Below are positions 1 to 17,261 of a DNA stretch of 17,261 nt, one piece after another; position 1 is the first letter of the stretch, and every line of letters starts with the position of its first letter. The translations under genes and the position numbers were made by a program. The DNA is taken from NCBI GenBank assembly GCA_026770615.1, contig MU631407.1, positions 240,550 through 257,810 on the forward strand. The letters run 5' to 3'. Source of the stretch: Pavlovales sp. CCMP2436. Taxonomy: Eukaryota > Haptophyta > Pavlovophyceae > Pavlovales. The notes below the pieces were generated by a model, which was given only the letters and a program-made list of their open reading frames with translations, searched no databases and had not been told where the DNA came from.

Positions 1-1
1 C

Positions 2-325
2 GTCGTGAGCGGCTGGGAAATCGACTCTGAGACCGCGTGGGTCACTTACGTCCTCACGTCCGAAAAGTTCATGACGAACCTGTGGCACATCAAGGAGTCT
101 GGCATGCCGGTGATCCTGTGCGTCGATACAACGCACCGCCTGGTGGCCGAGGGGCACTCCGTCTTCGTGTGCGGAGTTCGCGACATCGCTCAGAAGTTTC
201 ACAAGGTAGCCTACGGGGTCCAGCACAGTGACAAGGCTGTCGCTCCGAACGCGCGTATGCTCCGGATGGTCGCGGTAGAGTATCTGCGCGTCAAGGAGAG
301 GATGAAGTGGTCGTTAGCTTTATAG
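2..325 (+). pseudogene. MULE-type transposase core fragment, 5' end outside window
   Basis: The frame is open from the left edge, so the 5' end is missing, and it stops at TAG 323-325. Residues around 115-220 read VILCVDTTHRL, then GHSVFVCGVRD, then FHKVAYGVQHSD. That is the D-[AT]-T-[YH]-x-L ... G-x-x-D-x-x-x-x-F-H-x-[VI]-A pattern of the first half of the Mutator-like (MULE) DDE transposase domain, with the Asp of CVDTT as the likely first catalytic acid. Codons are GC3-rich up to about 311, then turn AT-rich (TCG TTA GCT TTA TAG), so homology probably ends at KERMKW. The rest of the DDE domain does not follow on this strand; a matching second half lies on the - strand at 565-1976. I read this as a truncated, dead copy. 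The motif match is by eye. Confidence 0.6.
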
Positions 326-564
326 TGTATTAAATTAGTTATTAGCAAAAAAATAGTTACTTTCATTATTATTTGTTCCGAATTTTTCGGCGAATTTTGA
401 ATTTTATTTCATGAGTAGTTCCTGAAGCTGTACTAAACATCTAATGGAACCAATTTTTTTGTTCTTCTAGTTAGTCAACTAACAGCAAACAAACAAAAAA
501 AAGGTTTCTAATTATTAAACTAACTATAAATATTAGCGGCTCAGCATGGTTCAACAGGTGTTGT
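326..564. other. AT-rich spacer, no gene seen
   Basis: About 240 bp of A/T-rich sequence with homopolymer runs and TTAAATTAGTTATT-like motifs, lying between the two convergent MULE fragments. I see no coding frame, RNA gene or clear terminal repeat. The 13-bp string TAAATTAGTTATT recurs near 4440 in the other gene-free stretch, which may be a shared remnant of one element or chance in AT-rich DNA. Confidence 0.5.
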
Positions 565-589
565 TCAGTCACTGGCTTGGTCGACATCA

Positions 590-617
590 GGCTGAGGTCG
601 AGCGATCGACCTCAGCC
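590..617. repeat. Perfect 12-bp inverted repeat with 4-nt loop
   Basis: GGCTGAGGTCGA (590-601), loop GCGA (602-605), TCGACCTCAGCC (606-617). It lies inside the last segment of the - strand MULE-like pseudogene. It could form a hairpin or cruciform. No T-run follows and no function is evident. Confidence 0.75.
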
Positions 618-988
618 ACGTGAACAAGGGGCAGAAGTTCGGCACCAACGCACCCGGGTACCCGCTGCACATGCGCAAAATCCCGAAAGGGGCCGCGCTG
701 TCTTCGGCGTACTAAATAAATAGGATATAACAAATGACAACTTTAGAGCTGAAAAGCAGAATTACCTTTTCCTTCACCCAGCCCTCGACGAGCAGGAAGG
801 TGGCATTGCACCACACGCCGGATTTGAACTTCTCGTTAAACACGTAATCATCCCGACTTGTGCCCGAGCCAGTTGCACATCTTCTCGCCGAACTTTTCGA
901 GCGAGTGTCTGACCCAATGGAGCGCGTCTTTCTGCGTGCGGTTGGTCCCCTCGAGCAGGTTGTTGTCGGAGCCGCAGCCAGCGCCGAC

Positions 989-1106
989 CTGCACGGTGGG
1001 GGTGGGGGCAGAGGTGGGGGGGTGGGGGGGTGGGGTGGGGGGGGGGGGTCAGGTGTAGAATTTGGAGTGCTCCGCCCTGTCCTAGCCCCTAGCCCCTAGC
1101 CCCTAC
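989..1106 (-). other. Intron of the MULE-like gene, G-rich on the + strand, direct repeat at borders
   Basis: Donor GTGCAG|GTAGGG and acceptor CCGTGCAG|GTCGG, phase 0, 118 bp. On the + strand it holds long G runs broken by single T or C, a likely G-quadruplex former. The donor side has about three copies of TAGCCCC/GGGGCTA. The nine bases CGTGCAGGT occur at both exon-intron borders. Confidence 0.6.
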
Positions 1107-1716
1107 CTGCACGCGCGTCCACCGGAAGACAAACGCGTACGACTCGAAGTACGCCGCCATGCCCGGCTGGGTCACGACCCAGGGGACGACGAAGAAGTAG
1201 CAGCAAAGCCACAGCAGCGCGAGCGTCGGCACGTTTTTGATCCGGTTGAAGTCGCGCTGCAGATTCTCGAGCACGGACGGCGCGTCGGGCGCAGGGCGCT
1301 TGTTCTTGCACAAGAGGAGCAGCTCAAGGTGGCGCCCTAAGTGCACGCTGCAGTCATCGTTCTCGCTGCCGAACACCTCGATGCAGGCCTGCTTCGACTT
1401 GTCGTTGTTGTCCTGCTGGACGGCCTTGATGCCGAGCTGGGGGAACTCCGGGTTGGGAATGGTGCGATGCCACGGGAGCGTCCCCCGCTAAGTGAGCGGC
1501 TCGCGCATCAGCCGACCGGATGAGAGGTTGCCACCCTTCTCCCGGAGCGTGCGTGCCGTCCACTCCTTGAACTCGCGCGCTGCATTCGGTGACGGCTTGA
1601 ACCTCCGCGAAGCCAGCTCGCCCTCGCTGGACGCGTCCGACATCACCGCCTCGTCTTCGCTGTCCACCTCCTCCAGACCGTACTCCTCGTCCTCCTCATC
1701 GGCAGCGAGGGCGGCC

Positions 1717-1808
1717 TCACTCGGCGTGTCATCGTCGTCATCGTCGGAAGCGGCGAGCACCTTGCGCACGTCCTGGTCACTCGGCGTGTCATCGTCGTCA
1801 TCGTCGGA
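1717..1808. repeat. In-frame 60-bp tandem duplication
   Basis: A 32-bp block (TCACTCGGCGTGTC followed by repeated ATCGTCGTC units) occurs at 1717-1748 and again, identical, at 1777-1808, a period of 60 bp. On the - strand it encodes the two acidic blocks SDDDDDDTPS, each followed by diverged sequence. The period is a multiple of three, so the frame is kept. Confidence 0.85.
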
Positions 1809-2168
1809 CACGACGATGCGCCCGCGCCGCCTCGAGGACTTGCCGGCCGTGCGCGGCTCGTCAGCCTCGGGCTCGGGCTCGAGCGGCGGCTTCTCGAGCG
1901 GCGGCTCCCGGCTTAAGAGGGGCACCCGCTCAGTGGGCGGTGTGATCGCTGAGGACTTCCACCACTGCCGCCGCATCCCTGCGCGTCGCGTCGCGCGCCG
2001 TGGCCGCCGTGGCCTTGCGTAATTCTGTAATGTGGCGCGAAACTTAAAATGTAATGTGGTATTCGAAAAATCTAAAATGTGAAATCCATTTTCAACTACG
2101 ACTTACTTAACAAATCCAAATCCAAACAAACCCATTTCCAATTGGGGACATAAAAATGAAGATGCGGC

Positions 2169-2188
2169 GGACGTCCGGACGTCCGGAC
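2169..2188. repeat. Short tandem GGACGTCC repeat
   Basis: GGACGTCC repeats two and a half times; each unit is itself palindromic. It sits just upstream of the pseudogene ATG and inside the left inverted repeat. Confidence 0.7.
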
Positions 2189-2196
2189 TTCGGCGA

Positions 2197-3660
2197 ATGG
2201 TCGACATCGCGCCGGCCACCTTCTGTGGCGCCATGGTGCAGGCGGTGCCAGCCTTTCTCGACGTGTGGGCCGACGCAACCAACCCGGCCAGCGGCGTCAC
2301 GCAGCGCGGGATGCTCGAGCTGCCGAAGGTCGAGCGCACGGTGGGGCGGAACTCCTTTGTGGACATGCAGCAGCACGGCTGGCGCGCATACCAGCTGCCG
2401 TCTTCCGGGGCAGGCTCTCTGCCACCGCCGCTACAGTGACAGGCCTTCCGCCGCTGCTGGTTGCCTCTGCAGCAGGAGGCCGGCATCGCCACAGGAGCGG
2501 GGCCCAACGGAGATCGGCCAACCTCCGTGCTCCACCTACCTCCAGAGGAAGCATGGCCGACGGCGCGCAGGAGCGCCGGCAGGCTGTGCCTCAACATGCA
2601 GAAGGACCTCACCGACGACCTGGAGGCTCACCGGTACGACGTGCTCAAGATGCAGATCAACGCGCGACACCACAGCGATCGCGCCGTACACCTCTTCAGG
2701 AGCCTCGATCGCAACAGCTCCGCCTGGGTCGCTGCACTACCGGGCGGCTACGGGCTCTGCAACACCGGCGAGTGGGTGGAGATCACCGCGCGCTTCTTCG
2801 GCGTCCAGAGCCCCATCTGCGCCAGCCTCGTCGCGTGCGGTGCGCGGCTCTTCGGCCACCTCATCGACGCGTTCGGAGACAACCTCGTCGCAGCCACGGG
2901 CGCAGGCGTCACCGGCGGCCACATCGCCAAGCTCCGGCACGACCCGATCCTCGCCCTCCTCGCGAGTTCGCGAGGTCCGTGGGTGCGTTCGCGCGCATCG
3001 AGGTTGGAGACTTCTTTGGCTCGATGCTCGCCGCCAACCCAGCGGCCTACCACCTCTACTACGGCGGAGTTACTACGGCGGAGTTGGCCGGCGACCCGGG
3101 CCGAAGGTCGACTTTTACGCCGAGTACGACCACTGGGATGGGCGTGCAGTCCCGCGGCTATTCGAACTCAAGACCATCGCGTTCTGCCCTACTTGGTACA
3201 AGGACACCGACGGGCAGTACCCGCAGGGCGCGGTGGGCAGGCGCGCCGACGCGCTACCTGGCGAGCGCATCAAGGAACTCATCAAGCTCGACCGCGACTT
3301 CTTCCACACACCATCCGGGCGACTGGCCCAATGGAGGCCCGTGCGCTGACCTTCTGCCCCCCAGGCGGCGATCCGTTCACTGCTCTTGCAGTTGGCGCCT
3401 TTGGGGAGTTTTCGATCGGCTTGGAAACGCTGGTCGCCGACTTCGCCAGCATGGGCGCACGCGCACTGCGAGGGCGCACGGGAGCTCCCTCCGAACAGCT
3501 CGCACGCACCGCCCTCCTGTGGAAGATGCGGCAGGAGATCGGTATGTGCGCCTTGTGTGGACACGCAAAGGTCATCATAGCGCGCGCGTATGGAGAACAT
3601 CGGTGGCGGCGGCGCGGCACACGGTGGCGCAGACGACGACGGCACCGAGGAGTGGGCTGA
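2197..3660 (+). pseudogene. Decayed RT-linked retroelement ORF, C-terminal part
   Basis: Coding-like, GC3-rich sequence runs from ATG 2197 in frame 1, meets TGA 2437-2439, and continues in the same frame. Recognisable order: a helical Q-K-D-L stretch (about 2600), SSAWVAALPGGYGL (about 2717), GHIAKLRHDPILALL (about 2920), then DFFGSMLAANP (about 3010), VDFYAEYDHW, LFELKTIAFCPTWY (about 3160), RRADALPGERI, and ALAVGAFGEFS (about 3385). I recall this order (S-x-AW-L-x-ALP, an H-rich segment, F-ELKT, FGAFGE-S) from abundant RT-associated ORFs of algae and dinoflagellates. The ELK block could be part of a restriction-endonuclease-like fold (inference). Frames change at about 2961 (one base lost), 3058-3085 (14-bp duplication) and about 3325 (one base lost). 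No reverse transcriptase domain is present here. With one stop and three frameshifts it is not functional. Confidence 0.5.
3058..3085. repeat. 14-bp exact tandem duplication causing a frameshift
   Basis: ACTACGGCGGAGTT occurs twice back to back (3058-3071, 3072-3085). The protein reads YYGGV in one frame, then YYGGV again in the next, so the duplication accounts exactly for the second frameshift in the retroelement-like pseudogene. Confidence 0.9.
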
Positions 3661-3809
3661 GGGCGTATACCACCAGCGACAAGAGACGCGGTCGTGGCAT
3701 GAAGCCGCGTAGGCCCGCCACCTGGGCGATCACTGGCTGAATTCGTCGGCCGTACACATCAGATTTGCCTGACTGCTGCTGCCCGTCTTCCTATTAAGTA
3801 AGTCGTAGT

Positions 3810-4649: not shown

Positions 4650-7600
4650 CTAACTCCTCGCCGCGCGCGGCGTCGCCCGAGTGAGCTGCGGGGTAGCGAA
4701 GTGGGGTGCAAAGTCGGCGCGCTGGCTCATAGACGGCACGTCCCACGTCGCGCGCGGCACGCCTTGGTGTTTTCGCAGGCGGGCGACTTGGCTGCGACTG
4801 AACGCTCGCAGCTCGTGCACTGCCAAACGGCACGAGTGCTCGCGCCAGCCGGCGAGTGCGAGGCTGAGCCGCGTCGTTGCTAACTGCGCCACGGCCGCGC
4901 GCGCGAGCATCGCGCATGCATGAGCCGTCGCGCCGAGGAGTGCGCGGGCGGTGGCGGCGCGGCCCGCGGCGGCGGTGGCGAGCGCGCGTGCGCTGCACCG
5001 CCACCGACCAAGTGCCTCGGCGCCGATCGATGCCGCAACGCGTGCGGCAAGCGGCGCGGTAATCGCTTGCCTGCGCACGCGCGCCGCGCCCGAGGCGACG
5101 GCGACGCGCAAGGCGGCGAGCGCCCCCCGCCCGCGCGCGCGCTCGGAAAAGCTCTTGACCTGCGCCGTGCGCCCCGCCGCGCTCCCGGCGAGCAGCGTCA
5201 GCACGCGCAATGCCCACCGCGTCGCGCGGCTGCGGCGGCTGCGCGCGACGGCCGTGACCGCCGCCGCACGCGCGCGCACGCGACCGGCTGCTGCGCGAAG
5301 CCGCCGCAGGGCCCGCGCCCGCGCGACCCGCCGGCGCGCGACGGCCGCAATGACGCGCCACGCGCCGAGGGCGCCCCGGCGCGCGCGCTGTGCGGCCGTG
5401 GCGGCCGTCGAGGCCGCCGCGGTGGCCGCGGCGAGGTGCGCGGCCGCGGCGAGGCGCAGGCGGCGCAGCACCCGGCGGAGCGCGCGCTCGCGCGGCCGGG
5501 GGGCCGGGGGCGCGGCGGCTGCGCGGGTGCCGAGCGCGAGCAGCACGCGCGCTAGCCGCCTTCGCGCGACGGCTGCGGCAGCGTCGGCACGCGCGCGTCG
5601 GGCCAGTGCCGCGCGCCGCCAGCTGCGCAGCCAGGCGCGCCCGCAGAGGTTGGCCACCGCGCCTGCGTGCGCGCCTACCGCGTGCCCGCGCCGCGCGCTC
5701 GTCGTGCGAGCGGCGGCCGCGCGGAGGGCGCTCCTGAGCGCGCGGGCGGCGGCCGTGCGCGCGAGGTGGCCGCCGACCTGGACGCGCGCGACGGCGGCCC
5801 GCCAGAGGTGCAGGGCCCGCCCACGCGCCCAGGTATCCGCGGCCGCCGCGGCGAGCGGTGCGCGTGCGACCGCGCCGCGCGCGCACCGCGCGGCCGCTCG
5901 CCAGCGCTCCGCCGCGCTGCGCGTCCGTGCGTGCGCGAGCCGGAGCGCGACGCGGCTGGCGCGCGCGCGCCTCGCGTCGCGCGCAGGCGTCGCGCAGCGG
6001 TGGCGGCGGGCGGCGGCGCGCCAGCGCCAGAGCCAGCGCACGTAGACGCTGAGCGCCGCCGCCTGCGCCTGGCTGGCCACGCGCGCCGCCGCCTCCCAGC
6101 GGCCGAGCGCGAGCCACAGCGCCGAGCGCCTGTGCGCGCCCGCCGCGGTAGCCCCAAGGCGGGCCGCGCCGCCGCGCCGTCCCCCACGCGGGCTCGCGCC
6201 CTGGCGAGGCGCGGCAAAAGGGCTCCGCTCCTGGCCGCGCGGGGCGCCCCGCGCCTTCGCGTAGGGGCTCGGCGGCTGTTGCTCGTAGGATGCGCGCGCG
6301 CGCCAGCCCGTTGGAGGTGTGGGCTGCGCCCTACGCGCCGGCACCCCCCGGCTGCCTCGCGTGCGCGTGCGTGCCGTCGGTGGAGGCGGGCCGAGCGGCG
6401 AGGACCGCTCCGGCTGCGGCCACTCCCCACGCCAGGGCGGCTGCGGCTGCGGGGCGGGGGTTGCTGCGGCGTGCAGCTCGGACGCGGAGGCGGCGGAGGG
6501 CGGCTGCCGCTGCACAACGGTCGAGCTGGCCTGCCTCGAAACGAGCTGCTTAACGGTGAGGTCGAGCACGCGGGTGAGCGGATCTCGCTCTCCCTCATCC
6601 CCCGCTTCCCCCCCCCCCTCTGCCCCCTCCGCCTCCTCTCCCTCCTCCGCCCCCTCCCCCTCATCCTCCGTGGCGGCAGCAGCAGCAGCAGCAGCCATCC
6701 CGTCTTCCGAGCACGGACTCCGCTCAGCCCCCCAACCCGCGCGGTGGGCGACGAAGGTGAGGTCGGCGGGTGCACGGGCGGGGAAATCGGGTCTCGGGCT
6801 GTACGAAAGGTTTTCAGCTGCTTTCGAAACGTACGTCAAGTCGTCGTCAGCCAGCACGCCCCCTTCCGAGCCGCGGCTGAGTTCGAAAGGTGTTCTGCCA
6901 CCCTCCGAGCCCAACTCCGAGCCAGCCCTTCCCCGCGCGCCGAGCTCGATGTACTCGCCGGGGCCGTACGCGTAGCTCCCGCCCGCCCACTCCGTGCCTC
7001 CACCTAAGAGAGAGTCGGTAGACAGGGCGGACTTCCTCCCGGACTCCCGCCCAGACTCCCTCCCGGACTCCCTCCCGGATTCTCTCGCGGACTCCCTCCC
7101 GGACTCCCGCCTAGACTCCCTCCCGGACTCCCTCCCGGACTCTGAAATAAAAAGAGAACCGGACCCTGAAAAAAGAGAACCGGACTCTGAAAAACCGCTC
7201 GCTTCCTCCCACAGCTGCGGCGCAGACAGATCCGACACGGACAGTGGGAGTGCGGACAGTGAGAGAGCGGACGGTGGACGATGCTCGTCGCTGCTGAGCA
7301 CGCGCATGGCGTCGCGCAGAGCCCGCCATCGTCTGATCGGAGTTAGTTCGGATTAAAGGTCAGAGTTTAGATTGGAATCGGGGTCGGATTTTGTGGAGGT
7401 CAGGGTCAGAGGTCAGCATTGGGATCGGGGTTAAGGTGTGCGGGCAAGATCATATAGCAGAAAGTAGGCAGAGCGCATACCCGGCTTTGTTGCCTTCAGA
7501 GAGTGCAAGTCGGGGGACGCAAAAAAAAAAAAAAAAAACCTGAGCTCATCCGCGAGTGCTGCCGCGGCGCGCACGTGCCAGCGGCGCCCACCTGCCTCCT

Positions 7601-10600
7601 TCAGATTCATGACGACCTCGTAGTAAACGCGCCTATTCATGCGATGGGTTAGGAGAGAGCGGAGGCGTGAGCATTCTTCTTCTTCTTCTTCTTCTTCTTT
7701 TAGTTGTATACACGGTAGCGCGCTTGAGCATGTAGGAAATAGTAATGATGATAATAATAATAGCAAGAAGAAGAAAAAGATGAAGAAGAAGAAGAAGGAG
7801 AACTATAATAATACTCATAATAACCTGAGCAGGTAGGCGTCGGCCAGGTCCGCCGCGGCGCGGGAGCGCACCACGCGCCCTCCGCTGATGCGCCAGCGGA
7901 CGAGCAGAAAAAGGCGCGAACTCAGTGCGCGCTGCGAGTCCGCGGCGGCTGCTTCCGCTGTCGACAGGCGCCTGTGCAATTGTGAGTGGTATTGTTGAAT
8001 CATTGATTGAATTAGTTGTGTTTATTAGTTAGATTTATTACTTATATTGATGACTTTTATGCTGTCGACAGGCGCCTGCGTGCTTGTGAGTGGTATTGTT
8101 GAATCATTGATTGAATGATTTGCGTTCATGAGCTATTTTGATTATATCTATGCTGTGCGGAATCGAAACTGTGTCAAATTAAGATCAATATGAGTGTGCA
8201 GCGAAATAAATAAGAATAGTTTCAGCACAACTATAAGTTGGCGTTTTGACCATCGGCCTGCAGAATCATAATTTATGCGATATGTCGACAGCTGAGCAAC
8301 AATGAGTGGCATTGTTGATCAGGGTGGACAGGAAAAGGCGAGTCGACGCGTGATACTAATTTATGCTCGTGAGGATTAGAAACATACTTATATTGCCCCT
8401 CACCTAATCGGCTAGGGTTAGAATCTAGTTATATTCAATGAGTATCATACCCGATGCCTTCGCTGCAAGTTGTAGGCAATTTTAAATGTGTCAAAAAAAA
8501 AATTGCTCTCGCCTGTGTGCAGTTGCGTTGGCAAAATAAAGTATAAAGTGTACATAAGCTATGAACCGACGAAGTGAGCAAAAAAATAAAAAATAAAAAA
8601 AAGCCTCTTGCCTGCGCGCGGCTGCGTCGGCGGAATAAATCACAACGTGTAAGTTATGAACCGACGAGGTGAGCAAAAAACCAAACAAAAACACACACAC
8701 ACACAGCCTCTTGCCTGTGCGCGGCTGTGTTGGCGGAATTAATTATGACGTTTAAGACTTTAAGTTATGAACTGACAAGGCAAGTAAAAAGAACAAAAAA
8801 AACATAGCCTCTTGCCTGCGCGCGGCTGCGTCGGCGGTGGCTCGCAGCGCTCCGTCGGTGGCGTGTGCGTTGGAGCTGGCAAGGGCGATGGAGTCGACCA
8901 GGCAGTCGGTGGTACCCGCGCTCGCGTTGGCCACCATCCTGCCAAAGGCAGCATCAGATGATTCACGGTTCATGCGGTTACTCGCGGGGGTGCAGGCGGA
9001 GGGAGGTGCGCAGTTAAATACAGAAAAAGAAATAAAAAAAAAGCGAGCCTCTTTCCTGCGGAGGGCACGCGCGACGTCCGCGAGACTCAGCGAGCGCACC
9101 GCGGCCTCTCGTGCGTCCGCCGCGTCAGCCCGCTCCGAAGACTGCATTCGCCAGCGTTGCAGCGCTTGTGCGCGCGCGCAGCAGGACGCGGCCCTGGCGC
9201 CAACGGCGCTCGCCTGCGCGGAGTGTGCGTGCGCCAAGACCGAACCACACCAACGCCGCAGTGCGCGCGCCAACGCCGCGCGCGAGGCGGCGGCGTGCGC
9301 GAAGGCGAAAGCGGCGAGGTGCGTGCAGCGGCGCGAATCTGCCAGCGAGACGGCCGCCTGCAGCCGCGAGAGCGCATGGCCTCGCAGCCGAGCGGCAGCG
9401 TTTGTCGCAACCTTGCGCCCAGCGGCCGCGCGCTTCTCCGCGGCGGCGGTGATGACGGGCGCAAATCTCGAGCGCAGAGCCGCGCGGTGCGCGCGCAGCC
9501 AGCGTCTACGGGTGATACGGCGGAAGGGGGGGGGGAGGGGGGCAGTCAGGGCAGGCAGTGGGGGGGTGTGCTGTGGCAGCAGGGGGGTGAGCGGAGCGAT
9601 CACCTGCGGCCATCGGCGAGGGCTGCCCGCCTGTGCTGTCGCAACCTCCAACTGTGCAGCCGCGCGCGGTCGGCTGACTCGCGCACGGCTGCGAGCACGC
9701 GTCGGGCTGCGCGCGCCAGACCGCACTTGCCCAGCGTCAACTCGGCGCGGAGCAATCGCCCGGCGCACGCCCAGGGGCGGAAGGCGCTGGCGAGGTGCGG
9801 CAGGCGGCTGAGTCCAGCCAGGTTGCGGAGTGTACGCGATGGGCCCACACGCGCCAGCGTGGTGGTCGCGGCCGCCGCGTGCTGGCACTCCGCGGCGGCC
9901 TCGCACAGCGCTGCGAATGCGACTCGCTTTATTGCAAACGCGGTTGCCACGGCCTTGTGCCCGGCGGCGCTCGCGTCCGTGGCGGCCGCGGTAGCCGCGG
10001 CGCCGGTAGTGACAGCCAGTGCCAGTAGTGCGCGCGTGGCCGAGACCCTGAAGGCGGCGGCGCGCGCGCGCTCGCAGCGCGCGTGGGGCAGGAGGCTACC
10101 GCGACTGCGCTTGCGCTCCAGCCGGGCTGCCTCGTACCAGCGCGCGAGGGCACCGATCTGGTCGCCAAAAAGCCAGGTGCGCGCGATATGCGTAGCGCGT
10201 TCGCGTAGCACGGCCAGGTGGGCGGCAAAACCGTCCGCGTGCCGTACGATCACCGCCGAGGCAAGCGCGACGCGCATGTCATCGGCAACCCAGGCGAGCC
10301 CAGGCGAGCGCAACGGCGGCGGCACGCGTCGCACGGCCCGAAGGCGGAGTGCGCTCGGGTGTCTGGCGCGCGCGGCGTGCCCACGCCAGGCCGCCTGCAC
10401 GCGCGTGCTCGCCTCGCTGTTCGCGCGGAGGACGAGCGCCCGCTCGGCCGTGCGGCGGGCCTCCTCCTTGCGCCGCCACGCCTCGTCAGCCAGCCGGCGC
10501 ATCAGCGAGCGGTCTGGAACGGCGAGCAGCTCGGGCCTGCACCCGAGCCGATAGCCTGGGCCGGCAGGCAGGGGTGAGCGCGGCTCTCGCACGCGCGACT

Positions 10601-14000: not shown

Positions 14001-16026
14001 TGTCCGCGGCCCTCCTCGCCGCCTCCCGCGTCGCCCTGCTCGGTGGCGGCTTGTTGAACGCGGCGGCGGCGGTGGCGGCGGAGGGCGAGGCCGAGTCCGA
14101 CGCCGCGCCGGCGTCGGCGGCCGCGCTGCGGCGGTGGGGCGCGCTCGCCGCGGACCGGCGCGCGCTGGCCGCGTGCGCCTGCGCGCTCGCGCGCGCGACG
14201 CAGGCGGCGGCGCTCGGGCAGGCCGGGGCGACGGGCGTGGGCGTGGGCAGCGCGGGGCAGCCGCAGCAGCTGATGGCCTGCCTCCTCGCCGACGCAGGGG
14301 GCGCGCAGGACGCCGCCGTCCTCGCCGCGGCCCGGGCGCACGGCAAGGCGCTCGGCGCGTCCGTCGCTGCGCTCACGGCGCGCGCGCAGCTGACCGCGTG
14401 CGCGCGCGCGCCCGGCGCAGCTCAGCCGCTCGCCACCCTTCTGCTCAGCAGCGCCGCCTCCGCTGCCTCAGTCCCCGCCTGGGCGCGCGCGCGCGCTGGC
14501 GCGCTGCTAGGCGCACACGTGCGCTGGGCGCTGGCGGCGTTCGCCCGCGGCGACGTGGCAGCCGCAGCCACGGCGGCGCGCGCGGCCGTGCCCGCCCTGC
14601 TCGCCGGCGCGTCCGACCCCGCCGCCGACGCGGCGCCCGTGCGCGCGGCGTCGCTAGCGGCGCTGCCGGCGGCCGCGGGGCTACTGCGCGCGCTGGGCGG
14701 CGGCGCGGGGGCGCTGGCGCTCTTGGAGGGGATGGCGCAGCAGGTGCGGGCCCTCTGTTTGAAAATTGTTTCCCGCCCTTTGTTAGTTTGTTTCCCTCCA
14801 TCTCCTTTTTGTAAGTGCGTCTTGTTCTTTTAACGTCCCCTGACTTGCAGCCCGAAGGCGTACGGGCATGACCTCCCTGTGTTTCCCTCCTCGCCTGTTA
14901 CTGCTCGCCCCTCCTTTCCCGCCTCTCCTGTAACTGCTATCCCATCCGCCACACCTTTCCCGGTGTTTGAGCAGGCGACCCTTCTCTTTCTGCTATTCTG
15001 TCCACGCCTAAAGCTGCGACGGTTGCACTGGCCTGTTTGCTGCCTTGCCCCTTCCCCCCCTCCCATCCCCCCTCCCCATTCTTAGCCGGCAGGCGCACTC
15101 GTGGCCACTGATCTGGCACCCCCCCCCCCCCCCTCCCCATCCCCCCCCACACGTGCAGGCGGATGCGCTGGTTGCCGAGCCCGGAGCTTTTGTGGGACTG
15201 CTGCACGCCTCGCCCCGCTGCCGCCTGCCCCTGCTCCGCGCGGCGCTCGGCGCTCTGCTTGCGTGGCACGAGGAGGTCTCCAACGCCGGGGGGGTTGGCG
15301 CGGATGTCTTGGGGGTGGTGCTGGACGGCGACTGGCGGTGGGCTTGCGCCGACCGCCTCCTTGCCGCCGCCGCCGCGAGCGCCCGGCTGAGCGCGAGCAG
15401 CAGCACCGTCGACTCGCTCGCCGACAGGGCGGCCGAGGTGTCTGCGCTCTCCGCCGTGCTCTCGCTGGCGCTGCCGCACACGCGCGGCCCCTCGCGCCTG
15501 GCCCGACAGCTCGTCGAGTCGGTCGTGTCCACCATCGCCTCCCCCGCCTTCCTCGCGCCCCAGTCTGCTCCCGCCTCCACCGGCTCCTCGGCGGCGGCGA
15601 AGTCGGCGCGGGTGGAGGACGAGGCGGTCTCAGCCGCAGCCGCCGCCGCACTGCACGGTGCGCTTGTGCACACCTCCCCCCTTTTATGCATATTTTATGT
15701 GTGTATATTATGTATGTATATATATATATATATATATATAGAAACATCCTCCGGCTACTTTCAGCCAACAGGCGCACGAAATAAAAATAAACACACGCAC
15801 ACGCACACACACCTGCCCACTGCCTGTCCCTCCCCCTTCTTCTTCTGCAGGCGCCCTCGTCGCGCCAGCCGCGAGCGCCCGCGCCGCCGCGCGCGCCGCC
15901 CTGGTTGGGGGCGCCTTCGAGGCACTCGGCGCAGCGGCGCAGGCGGCGCTCACCAACTCGCTCGCGCGGGGGGCGGCGGCGGACGAGGCAGACGTCGAGG
16001 CGGCTGCAGACGCGGGGGGCGAGGTG

Positions 16027-16070
<44 letters not shown>

Positions 16071-17120
16071 CCTCCCCACTTGCAGCCCCTGGTCTGAGCG
16101 TAGGGGCATGGCGCTTTTTCCCGCTTTTTTATATCAAAAAATATCAAAAATTGAGAGATGCGGTCTCATATGGGCTAGGTTCGGGCTCGGGCTCGGCAGG
16201 CTTTTCTCTATCCACCCCCCCCCCTCCACCTTTGCTATATACATAGACAATTTCTTCTTATGTAGACCGCTGCCCCGGGGAATGATTACGATTATGCAAC
16301 TGGCTAGGTTCGGGCTCGGGCACGCGGGAGGGTTTTCCTGTCGCGAACCGAGTCTAACCCCACCGTGAATGCCACCCCATATCCATTCTATGACCCCAAG
16401 GCGTGTTTGTGTGTGTGTGTGTGTGTGTGTGAAAGCCATTCCATATCCATTCTAGAACATATCCATACCCTAAGGCGGGTGTTCCGCCTGCTTTTTGCTC
16501 TCTTTTTTTGCTTTTGCTTTTGCTTTTATTATTTTTGCTTTGTATCCATATTCTGTGATTAACCCCCCCCCCCCCCCTTATATCTATCTATCTATCTATC
16601 TATATAAAACGCTCCGCGCGCTTCTCCCCCCTCTATTAATCAATTGTTAAACATATAAAAAAATATCCATTAAAATATCGCAGTCACTTCGCTCGCCCCC
16701 CCCTCCCCCTCCCCCCTCTATTAATCAGGTGTATAATTATATCATAAAATATCCAATAAAATATCGCAGGCGCTCCGCTCGCTCCCGCTTCGCGCGCTGC
16801 ACGTCTCCGCCGTGATCGACGCCGCCTCCGCCGCTCTGGCGCAGGGCGGCCCCTCCTCCTCCCTCTCCGCCCTGGCGTTAGCAGACCTCTCCAGCGCCTG
16901 CGCCCTCATCAAAGTCCTCCTCGCCGGTGGCTTTTCAAATGTGGTGCCCTGCTCCGACGCCCCGGCCGAGATCGGCGAGTTGCTCGCCGCCCCCTTCCGC
17001 CTGCTCCGCGCGCTCGTCGGCGCTGCGGCGGCTGCGGACGTGAGGACGGCGGCGGCGGCGAGTGGGGGGGCGGGGGGGGAGGAGGAGGGGGAGGACGAGC
17101 TCGGGGCATACGCCGCACAG
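11080..17120 (+). CDS. HEATR1: HEATR1/UTP10, SSU processome HEAT-repeat scaffold, 5' part
   Basis: Exons: 11080-12963, 13091-14743, 15159-15657, 15851-16023, 16770-17120; phases 0, 0, 1, 0, then 0 into an intron that leaves the window. They encode 1,520 residues; animal HEATR1 is about 2,100, so the C-terminal domain lies to the right. The start MTSLGQQLQQLAA is the family N-terminus although the frame is open further upstream. Conserved blocks follow: SFLYDAREA (45-53), LLELCTVDARFEPF (69-82), LLRSAHKALEFLVRRYRVHVHN (about 123-144), LLRAFLPYHQTALFARAV (148-165) and W-x-WLQPVKASGLPL (193-206). The rest is Ala-rich helical repeat with little recognisable identity. UTP10/HEATR1 is a nucleolar scaffold for early 18S pre-rRNA processing and rDNA transcription. 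Identity is sure for the N-terminus; the exon joins rest on frame and splice sites. Confidence 0.85.
12964..13090 (+). other. HEATR1 intron 1
   Basis: Donor GCCGAG|GTGCGC and acceptor CGCGCACAG|TCG after a C/T-rich tract; 127 bp, phase 0. The frame before and after joins cleanly (DAE|SGGEGAQRELAAALV). Confidence 0.8.
14744..15158 (+). other. HEATR1 intron 2 with an internal decoy acceptor
   Basis: Donor GCGCAGCAG|GTGCGG and acceptor CACACGTGCAG|GCGG after C-rich runs; 415 bp, phase 0. An internal CTGACTTGCAG (ending 14850) looks like an acceptor, but using it gives a TGA after six codons (PEGVRA). CGCCTGTTACTGCT / CTCCTGTAACTGCT are direct repeats near 14894 and 14927. Confidence 0.7.
15658..15850 (+). 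other. HEATR1 intron 3
   Basis: Donor CACG|GTGCGC and acceptor CTTCTTCTGCAG|GCG; 193 bp, phase 1. It contains a TA run (15717-15740) and CA-rich repeats (about 15791-15812). GGTGCGCTTGT at the 5' border and GGCGCCCTCGT at the 3' border resemble each other (8 of 11), and both could read GALV. Confidence 0.7.
16024..16769 (+). other. HEATR1 intron 4, repeat-rich
   Basis: Donor GGCGAG|GTGCTT and acceptor AATATCGCAG|GCGC; 746 bp, phase 0. Contents in order: T39 (16028-16066); a decoy acceptor CCACTTGCAG (ending 16085) that would give an early stop; a direct repeat GGCTAGGTTCGGGCTCGGGC (16173 and 16302); CCATATCCATTCTA repeated near 16377 and 16441; a GT run (16409-16430); a TATC run (16581-16602); and tandem copies of the 3' splice region. 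No exon is evident inside. Confidence 0.7.
16602..16797. repeat. Tandem copies of the HEATR1 intron 4 3' splice-site region
   Basis: CTCTATTAATCA ... AAAATATCCA(T/A)TAAAATATCGCAG followed by C(A/G)CT(T/C)CGCTCGC occurs at about 16631-16697 and again at about 16716-16785, offset about 85 bp. Both carry TATCGCAG (ending 16683 and 16769); only the second continues into the open HEATR1 frame. A third partial copy of the exon-start part (CGCTCCGCGCGCTTC) lies at 16610-16624, about two periods upstream. Confidence 0.85.
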
Positions 17121-17261
17121 GTGCCCAACGAAATGAACAAAATGAATCAAAATGAAACAAAATGAGACAAAAAGAGAAGATCATTTATATCCGACAAAAT
17201 GAAACAAAAAGAGAAGATCATTTATATCCGACAAAATGAAACAAAAAGAGAAGATCATTTA
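17121..17261 (+). other. HEATR1 intron 5, 5' part, with 37-bp tandem repeat
   Basis: Donor GCACAG|GTGCCC at 17120/17121; the intron runs off the window. From about 17131 it is AAATGAAACA-like A-rich repeats. From 17174 a 37-bp unit (GAGAAGATCATTTATATCCG, then ACAAAATGAAACAAAAA) repeats with starts at 17174, 17211 and 17248, identical where visible, and is cut by the window end. Confidence 0.8.

Follow-up and report, generated by a model that had tools for sequence, protein, structure and literature searches.

The window analysed in this work comprises 17,261 nucleotides of the GC-rich eukaryote Pavlovales sp. CCMP2436 (contig C101, positions 240550-257810) and belongs to an assembly of 119.35 Mb in 703 contigs; the contig ends where the window ends (257810). 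Its minus strand carries a gene with exons A (to 9604), B (9505-9056), C and D (Table 1), E (7632-7540) and F (from 7332). Spliced exons A to F form one open frame to the stop, all junctions being in phase 2 and of the form AG|R, with an arginine across each of them. A codon model trained on the window itself marks 8816-8932 of exon C as coding. We read the protein as Sfi1/IQ-like; in exon A one match to the IQ motif was found, below threshold (PF00612, E=0.0044; 17.1 bits, the cut-off being 20.3). The neighbouring gene on the plus strand (from 11080) has an open frame once introns I1-I4 are spliced out. The sole Pfam match in its first 624 residues is U3snoRNP10 at sub-threshold strength (E=0.033, 15 bits against 34.4), so that its identity as a UTP10/HEATR1-like protein is only a reading. 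Searches for homologues of this protein scored none, either among 7990 candidates (E<=0.001) or, with residues 45-175, among 471 candidates (E<=1e-5). Near the start of the last intron of this gene (17121-17261) lies a tandem array of 37-bp units (TRF 17157-17261, 98% matches). Several open reading frames are present in positions 1-3740 (e.g. 2111-3349 and 2160-3740 on the plus strand), and the six that were tried gave no Pfam match at E<=0.01. No known structured RNA was detected in the window at gathering thresholds.

An earlier note on this DNA had placed the region behind exon C in an intron of the minus-strand gene, and as far as the frame shows this holds: the open, phase 2 reading of exons A to F is good evidence, short of proof, that 7972-8815 is an intron and that donor 1 is the donor used. 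The same note had described the donor junction as repeated at intervals of about 100 bp. The motif CAGGC[AG]AGAG indeed occurs at four sites on the minus strand of the window and at none on the plus strand, and the last exon bases of the copies are 8816, 8715, 8612 and 8513, i.e. at spacings of 101, 103 and 99; the first three positions had been given correctly and the fourth one base off, at 8514. The repeat finder returned four 75-nt copies as one family (D6; spacings 99, 103, 101). When the end of exon C is compared with its own intron the score is 32, whereas the maximum in 2000 local shuffles is 16, and a chance origin of the copies is thereby ruled out.

The repeated donor block is 32 nt long and consists of 23 nt of exon and 9 nt of intron. 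Copies 2 and 3 differ at three positions. For copy 4 the differences number 11 from copy 1, 9 from copy 2 and 10 from copy 3, which makes it the most diverged in the alignment of the four units that had been proposed. The spacers that follow copies 1-3 are 68-85% identical at aligned, ungapped sites of gapped alignments. There is no recognisable shared spacer after copy 4; instead, a T-run and then the decayed antisense remains of an interspersed element follow it. The frame through exon C meets a stop at 8754-8752, upstream of donor 2 (ORF 8752..10095), and use of any of donors 2-4 would run the frame into this stop, contrary to productive use. Of two equal donors, the intron-proximal one tends to be chosen by mammalian spliceosomes. 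If such a preference holds here, exon signals must favour donor 1; otherwise, transcripts with an early stop are to be expected.

At its other end, the acceptor junction, intron C|D has a duplication too, the two copies being 82% identical over 91 nt. The comparison of the acceptor with its own intron gave a score of 37 (maximum of 17 in 300 shuffles). An inner acceptor at approximately 8076 would yield AGG CGC CTG TCG ACA GCA TAA and thus a stop. Intron C|D has therefore the order of four donor copies followed by two or three acceptor copies, and the innermost copy is the most diverged at the donor end and at the acceptor end alike. The proposal in the earlier note that the intron grew by repeated duplication of the exon-intron junction stands in so far as the junction is the repeated unit; it had missed the acceptor end and the other introns of the genome. 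The acceptor pair of C|D did not appear in the scan of introns for their own repeats, probably an effect of the complexity filter used there, and was found by other comparisons.

Table 1 Positions of the exons, introns and repeated junction copies discussed in the text (window coordinates)
Feature	Position	Strand	Basis
Exon C (41 codons, phase 2), from which the repeated exon tail derives	8816..8938	-	spliced frame open
GC-AG intron C|D, 844 nt	7972..8815	-	spliced frame
Exon D	7825..7971	-	spliced frame
Copy 1, exon tail and GC donor 1, used according to frame	8807..8838	-	block comparison, frame
Copy 2, donor 2, last exon base 8715	8706..8737	-	4/32 differences from copy 1 (three G-to-A changes at CpG)
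Copy 3, donor 3, last exon base 8612	8603..8634	-	1/32 differences from copy 1
Copy 4, decayed donor 4 (GCGAGA), last exon base 8513	8504..8535	-	11/32 differences from copy 1
Three T-rich, mutually similar spacers X1 (8738-8806), X2 (8635-8705) and X3 (8536-8602), with copies 2 and 3 between them	8536..8806	-	
Antisense copy, decayed, of an interspersed poly(A)-tailed element; lies immediately inside copy 4	8445..8486	-	score 18 against maximum of 11 in 500 dinucleotide shuffles
Upstream acceptor-junction copy, intron end and 15 nt of exon D	8061..8151	-	repeat comparison
Acceptor junction adjoining exon D, AG at 7973-7972	7957..8047	-	repeat comparison, frame
Third, degenerate acceptor-like copy (CTCAGCTGTCGACAT, GTCGACA at 8289), weak	8270..8310	-	repeat/motif comparison
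Neighbouring gene, intron I4 (16024-16769): duplicated acceptor junction	16624..16786	+	86 nt x 1.9 tandem; score 34 against maximum of 20 in 300 shuffles

The window contains nine complete introns. When each of their 18 junctions was compared with the intron to which it belongs, a score above that of every one of 300 shuffles was obtained for three: the donor and the acceptor of C|D and the acceptor of I4 on the plus strand. They lie in the two longest introns of the window (844 and 746 nt). The acceptor of I2 on the plus strand scored 20, a value reached by 1 of 300 shuffles (maximum 21); it sits in a C-run and was left uncounted. Interior repeats away from junctions are also present in introns I2 and I4, and at other loci. 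At the end of exon B a donor-like CGCAG|GAAAGAGGCT with a T-run was found (9042..9070, minus strand), with which intron B|C would start with GA. The donor regions of B|C and C|D are identical at 14 of 15 bases, and a T-run follows both. The exon B junction scored 20, a value reached by 1 of 500 shuffles (maximum 23), and its interpretation as a fifth, older relative of the donor copies is suggestive only. Intron B|C could be retained in the transcript because it is 117 nt long, a multiple of three, and free of stops.

Duplicated junctions were also read by eye from the listed repeats at other loci of the genome, of which L020 and L029 had been fetched as carriers of the interspersed element, and L034 and L045 came from stretches drawn irrespective of repeats (29,786 readable bases in 5 of 20 stretches). 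Stretch L020 contains a donor A with a repeated block of 38 nt at 100% identity, a donor B in three copies spaced by 159 and 139, and a duplicated acceptor block. The donor in L034, beside an exon that we read as IQ-like, has a 50-nt block repeated with 2 mismatches, and that in L029 a repeated block of 22 nt of exon and approximately 19 nt of intron. In L045 (4324-4779, minus strand) a 456-nt intron, whose flanking exons join in frame, has both ends duplicated, the copies of the donor block lying 178 nt apart and those of the exon-start block 166 nt apart. It is the second intron with the donor-donor...acceptor-acceptor order. These cases suggest that the duplication process has also acted on other introns of this genome.

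Local direct repeats are not confined to junctions. In 110 kb (window included) 46 pairs were found, whereas one shuffled control gave none; short local duplications are thus common in the genome, also off junctions. In an automated placement test 8 of 18 pairs fell on coding boundaries as called by the model, where 6.0 would be expected (P=0.21), and since this is non-significant we do not claim that duplications prefer junctions. Two window pairs of the initial 20 had been excluded from that test, the codon model having been trained on the window, and the boundary calls are noisy: an exon in L020 with a sub-threshold aminotransferase match (PF00202, E=1.8e-4) was called on the opposite strand. 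Junction duplications are present in three of four introns of at least 400 nt against none of eight shorter ones. The 12 complete introns of this count comprise the nine from the window, that of L045 and the kinase introns L052 and L053, which were picked for their exons; a further kinase stretch, L054, was excluded, its acceptor not being recognisable. The association with long introns is suggestive only, because C|D and L045 were chosen for having duplications. Three of the four junctions of L052 and L053 are at shuffle level. The acceptor of L053 scored 15, a value that none of 300 shuffles reached (maximum 13), but a TA repeat adjoins it, and no hit was obtained there in the own-intron repeat scan. 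Two matches of the kinase search (C19:598705-599397 and C34:157292-157462) are surrounded by open frames of 18100 and 6594 codons, which are surprisingly long.

Each duplication in intron C|D copied the splice signal and part of the intron together with the exon edge, which amounts to about 22 nt of exon C at the donor and 15 nt of exon D at the acceptor. The reading that we favour, and hold to be fairly likely, is that the intron was lengthened by successive short local duplications that spanned its active exon-intron junctions at both ends. As the exons are still joined in frame by the outermost donor and acceptor, copies falling inside the intron would be spliced out and left to drift; the outermost copies would then be the youngest. 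At the donor end two direct repeats may have been expanded to four by unequal exchange or replication slippage, helped by the T-runs, which would explain the even spacing of 99-103 and the similar spacers. That the spacers of copies 1-3 are alike is as expected of tandem units and lends support to serial duplication. The inner splice sites are probably weak competitors or fossils. Against a plain tandem array speaks copy 4, which has no recognisable spacer, so that the decayed element would have to be its spacer.

A further point against plain tandem duplication leads to the strongest rival. Around the donors of L020 and in L034 and L045 the repeats are sharp-edged and enclose unrelated filler, which fits better with insertion or break repair. 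According to such a reading filler or an antisense poly(A)-tailed element was inserted just behind the 5′ splice site, by repair of a staggered break or by target-primed insertion. Every insertion would have left a long target-site duplication, 20-50 nt of the exon edge, and at this locus the insert would later have been multiplied through recombination between its flanking repeats. We regard this course of events as possible, though on balance unlikely. Consistent with it are the T-runs behind the donor block, the decayed element after copy 4, and the position of the right edge of the repeat: of the six donor cases examined by eye, five (window, L020 A, L020 B, L034 and L045) have it between about -1 and +10 relative to the donor. 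The sixth, L029, repeats the adjoining intron as well, and I4 is a plain tandem without filler; both would fit plain duplication better. The fillers were not recognisable by eye as one element either. When spacers of C|D were compared with the interspersed element, X3 scored 7, below the shuffle mean, and X1 gave a weak score of 10, reached by 20 of 500 shuffles. Break repair or insertion and plain duplication may both operate, because the donors of L020, L034 and L045 differ in this respect from L029 and I4.

The favoured serial duplication can be extended to the lineage as a whole. Introns would then lengthen mainly at active junctions, and a junction-directed process, in which breaks are tied to transcription, to splicing or to the change in composition between the GC-rich exon and the AT-rich intron, would copy the exon edge and the splice signal inward at both ends and leave nested, age-graded series that record growth and may compete in splicing. 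We consider this generalisation doubtful. A true preference for junctions would suggest a mutational process tied to exon-intron borders.

The copies might alternatively be kept for a function, the extra donors serving as U1 binding sites that define exon C, as CAG|GC ratchet points for stepwise removal of the intron, or in regulation via transcripts with premature stops. This is improbable. It draws on the sequence CAG|GCAAGAGGC, identical across copies 1-3, on the report that splicing at the upstream 3′ site of an exon can be stimulated by a 5′ splice site on its downstream side (PMC8724738), and on the contrast between copies 1 and 3, which differ at 1 of 32 block sites and 14 of 44 spacer sites (Fisher p=0.0014). 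The remaining two pairs among copies 1-3 lack such a contrast (p=0.15 and 0.36), so that selection on decoy donors, or gene conversion, is only possible. Copy 4 is decayed, and the extra exon-start copy in L045 has no AG before it. All the donor copies contain AG|GC, but the inner AGs have no directly preceding pyrimidine tract, the sequence there being GC-rich.

A transposon, introner or satellite unit that carries the motif by chance is very improbable: interspersed elements are common in introns of this genome (655 first-look candidates for one such element, of which 40 were scored, with at least 41 matches including the query's own place), but copy 1 belongs to an open coding exon and the donor unit gave 3 matches in the 119-Mb assembly, all at its own locus (counts are lower bounds). 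The earlier note had named occurrence at many unrelated loci as the mark of a transposon or satellite, and since the unit was not found elsewhere in the assembly, such an origin is unlikely. Neither long arrays of one unit nor its presence at many loci, as in a satellite, nor the many unrelated loci of an introner or transposon were observed. Exact matches to the 14-mer CRCAGGCAAGAGGC number five in the assembly; three fall at this locus, and the other two are in coding-like sequence that has no T-run. For the acceptor block no match beyond its own locus was found in the 119-Mb assembly (again a lower bound).

The earlier note knew of no feature type to which such an arrangement belongs; in fact, tandem duplication across an intron-exon boundary has been published. 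A study of the potato RdRp gene that drew on relatives and RNA reads describes a new intron produced by one tandem duplication, which crossed the border between intron 1 and exon 2 (PMC4974935). There, as here, the duplicated block spans a splice junction and the extra exon-derived copy ends inside an intron; unlike there, donor copies are repeated and one or two acceptor copies added in an existing intron, whose borders are predicted from the frame. Direct repeats of exon, splice signal and intron at one junction, which characterise a boundary duplication, are found at C|D. The AGGT tandem-duplication model of Rogers (PMC3443670) and a fission-yeast intron across four 24-bp duplicates, both described in PMC4974935, share with C|D the tandem copies that each bear a splice-site-like AG|G; in them a new intron arises inside an exon, whereas here an existing intron is enlarged and the exon is unchanged. 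Tandem genomic duplication has also been reviewed as a route of intron gain (PMC3443670). Direct repeats of 4-30 bp near intron borders have been described by comparing the two ends of an intron (PMC11782384); they likewise lie near splice sites and are read as scars of breaks and insertions, whereas in our case each end repeats itself, mostly in longer blocks. Introner families can have up to 50% GC and 40% GA 5′ splice sites (PMC9860276, PMC7789003). GC and GA donors occur here as well, and the dispersed element is present in several introns of the genome; unlike introners, the repeated unit is local, found at a single locus and without a family.

No serial, two-ended case was noticed in the consulted literature on repeated or duplicated splice sites in introns and on introners. 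As junction duplication itself is already published, the novelty lies in its serial, two-ended and recurrent form. To our knowledge, the growth of introns is less documented than their gain. Several introns with copies of their own junctions at varied stages of decay provide a natural record of such growth, and three near-identical donors approximately 100 nt apart are a natural experiment on the choice made by the spliceosome.

The dispersed element, seen in antisense as a T-run followed by GTTCTTTTAACGTCCCCCGACTTGCAGCCCGAAGGCGTACGGGCATGAC, is present in the window at 14824-14872 and 16060-16110 on the plus strand and at 7492-7528 and 8445-8486 on the minus strand, and in stretches L011-L029. 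An exact 28-base piece of it was searched for in viral contigs and had no match there. Its opposite strand ends in poly(A), which resembles the tail of a retroposon. With the element read in this antisense orientation, coding sequence in the same direction was called within 120 nt upstream of 8 of the 19 fetched copies, against 3 of 19 in the opposite direction, these calls being noisy. Judged by eye, several copies lie a few bases behind a donor (AG|GTGGCTTTTTT), and a possible reading of the element is an antisense retroposon by which the starts of introns are seeded or favoured.
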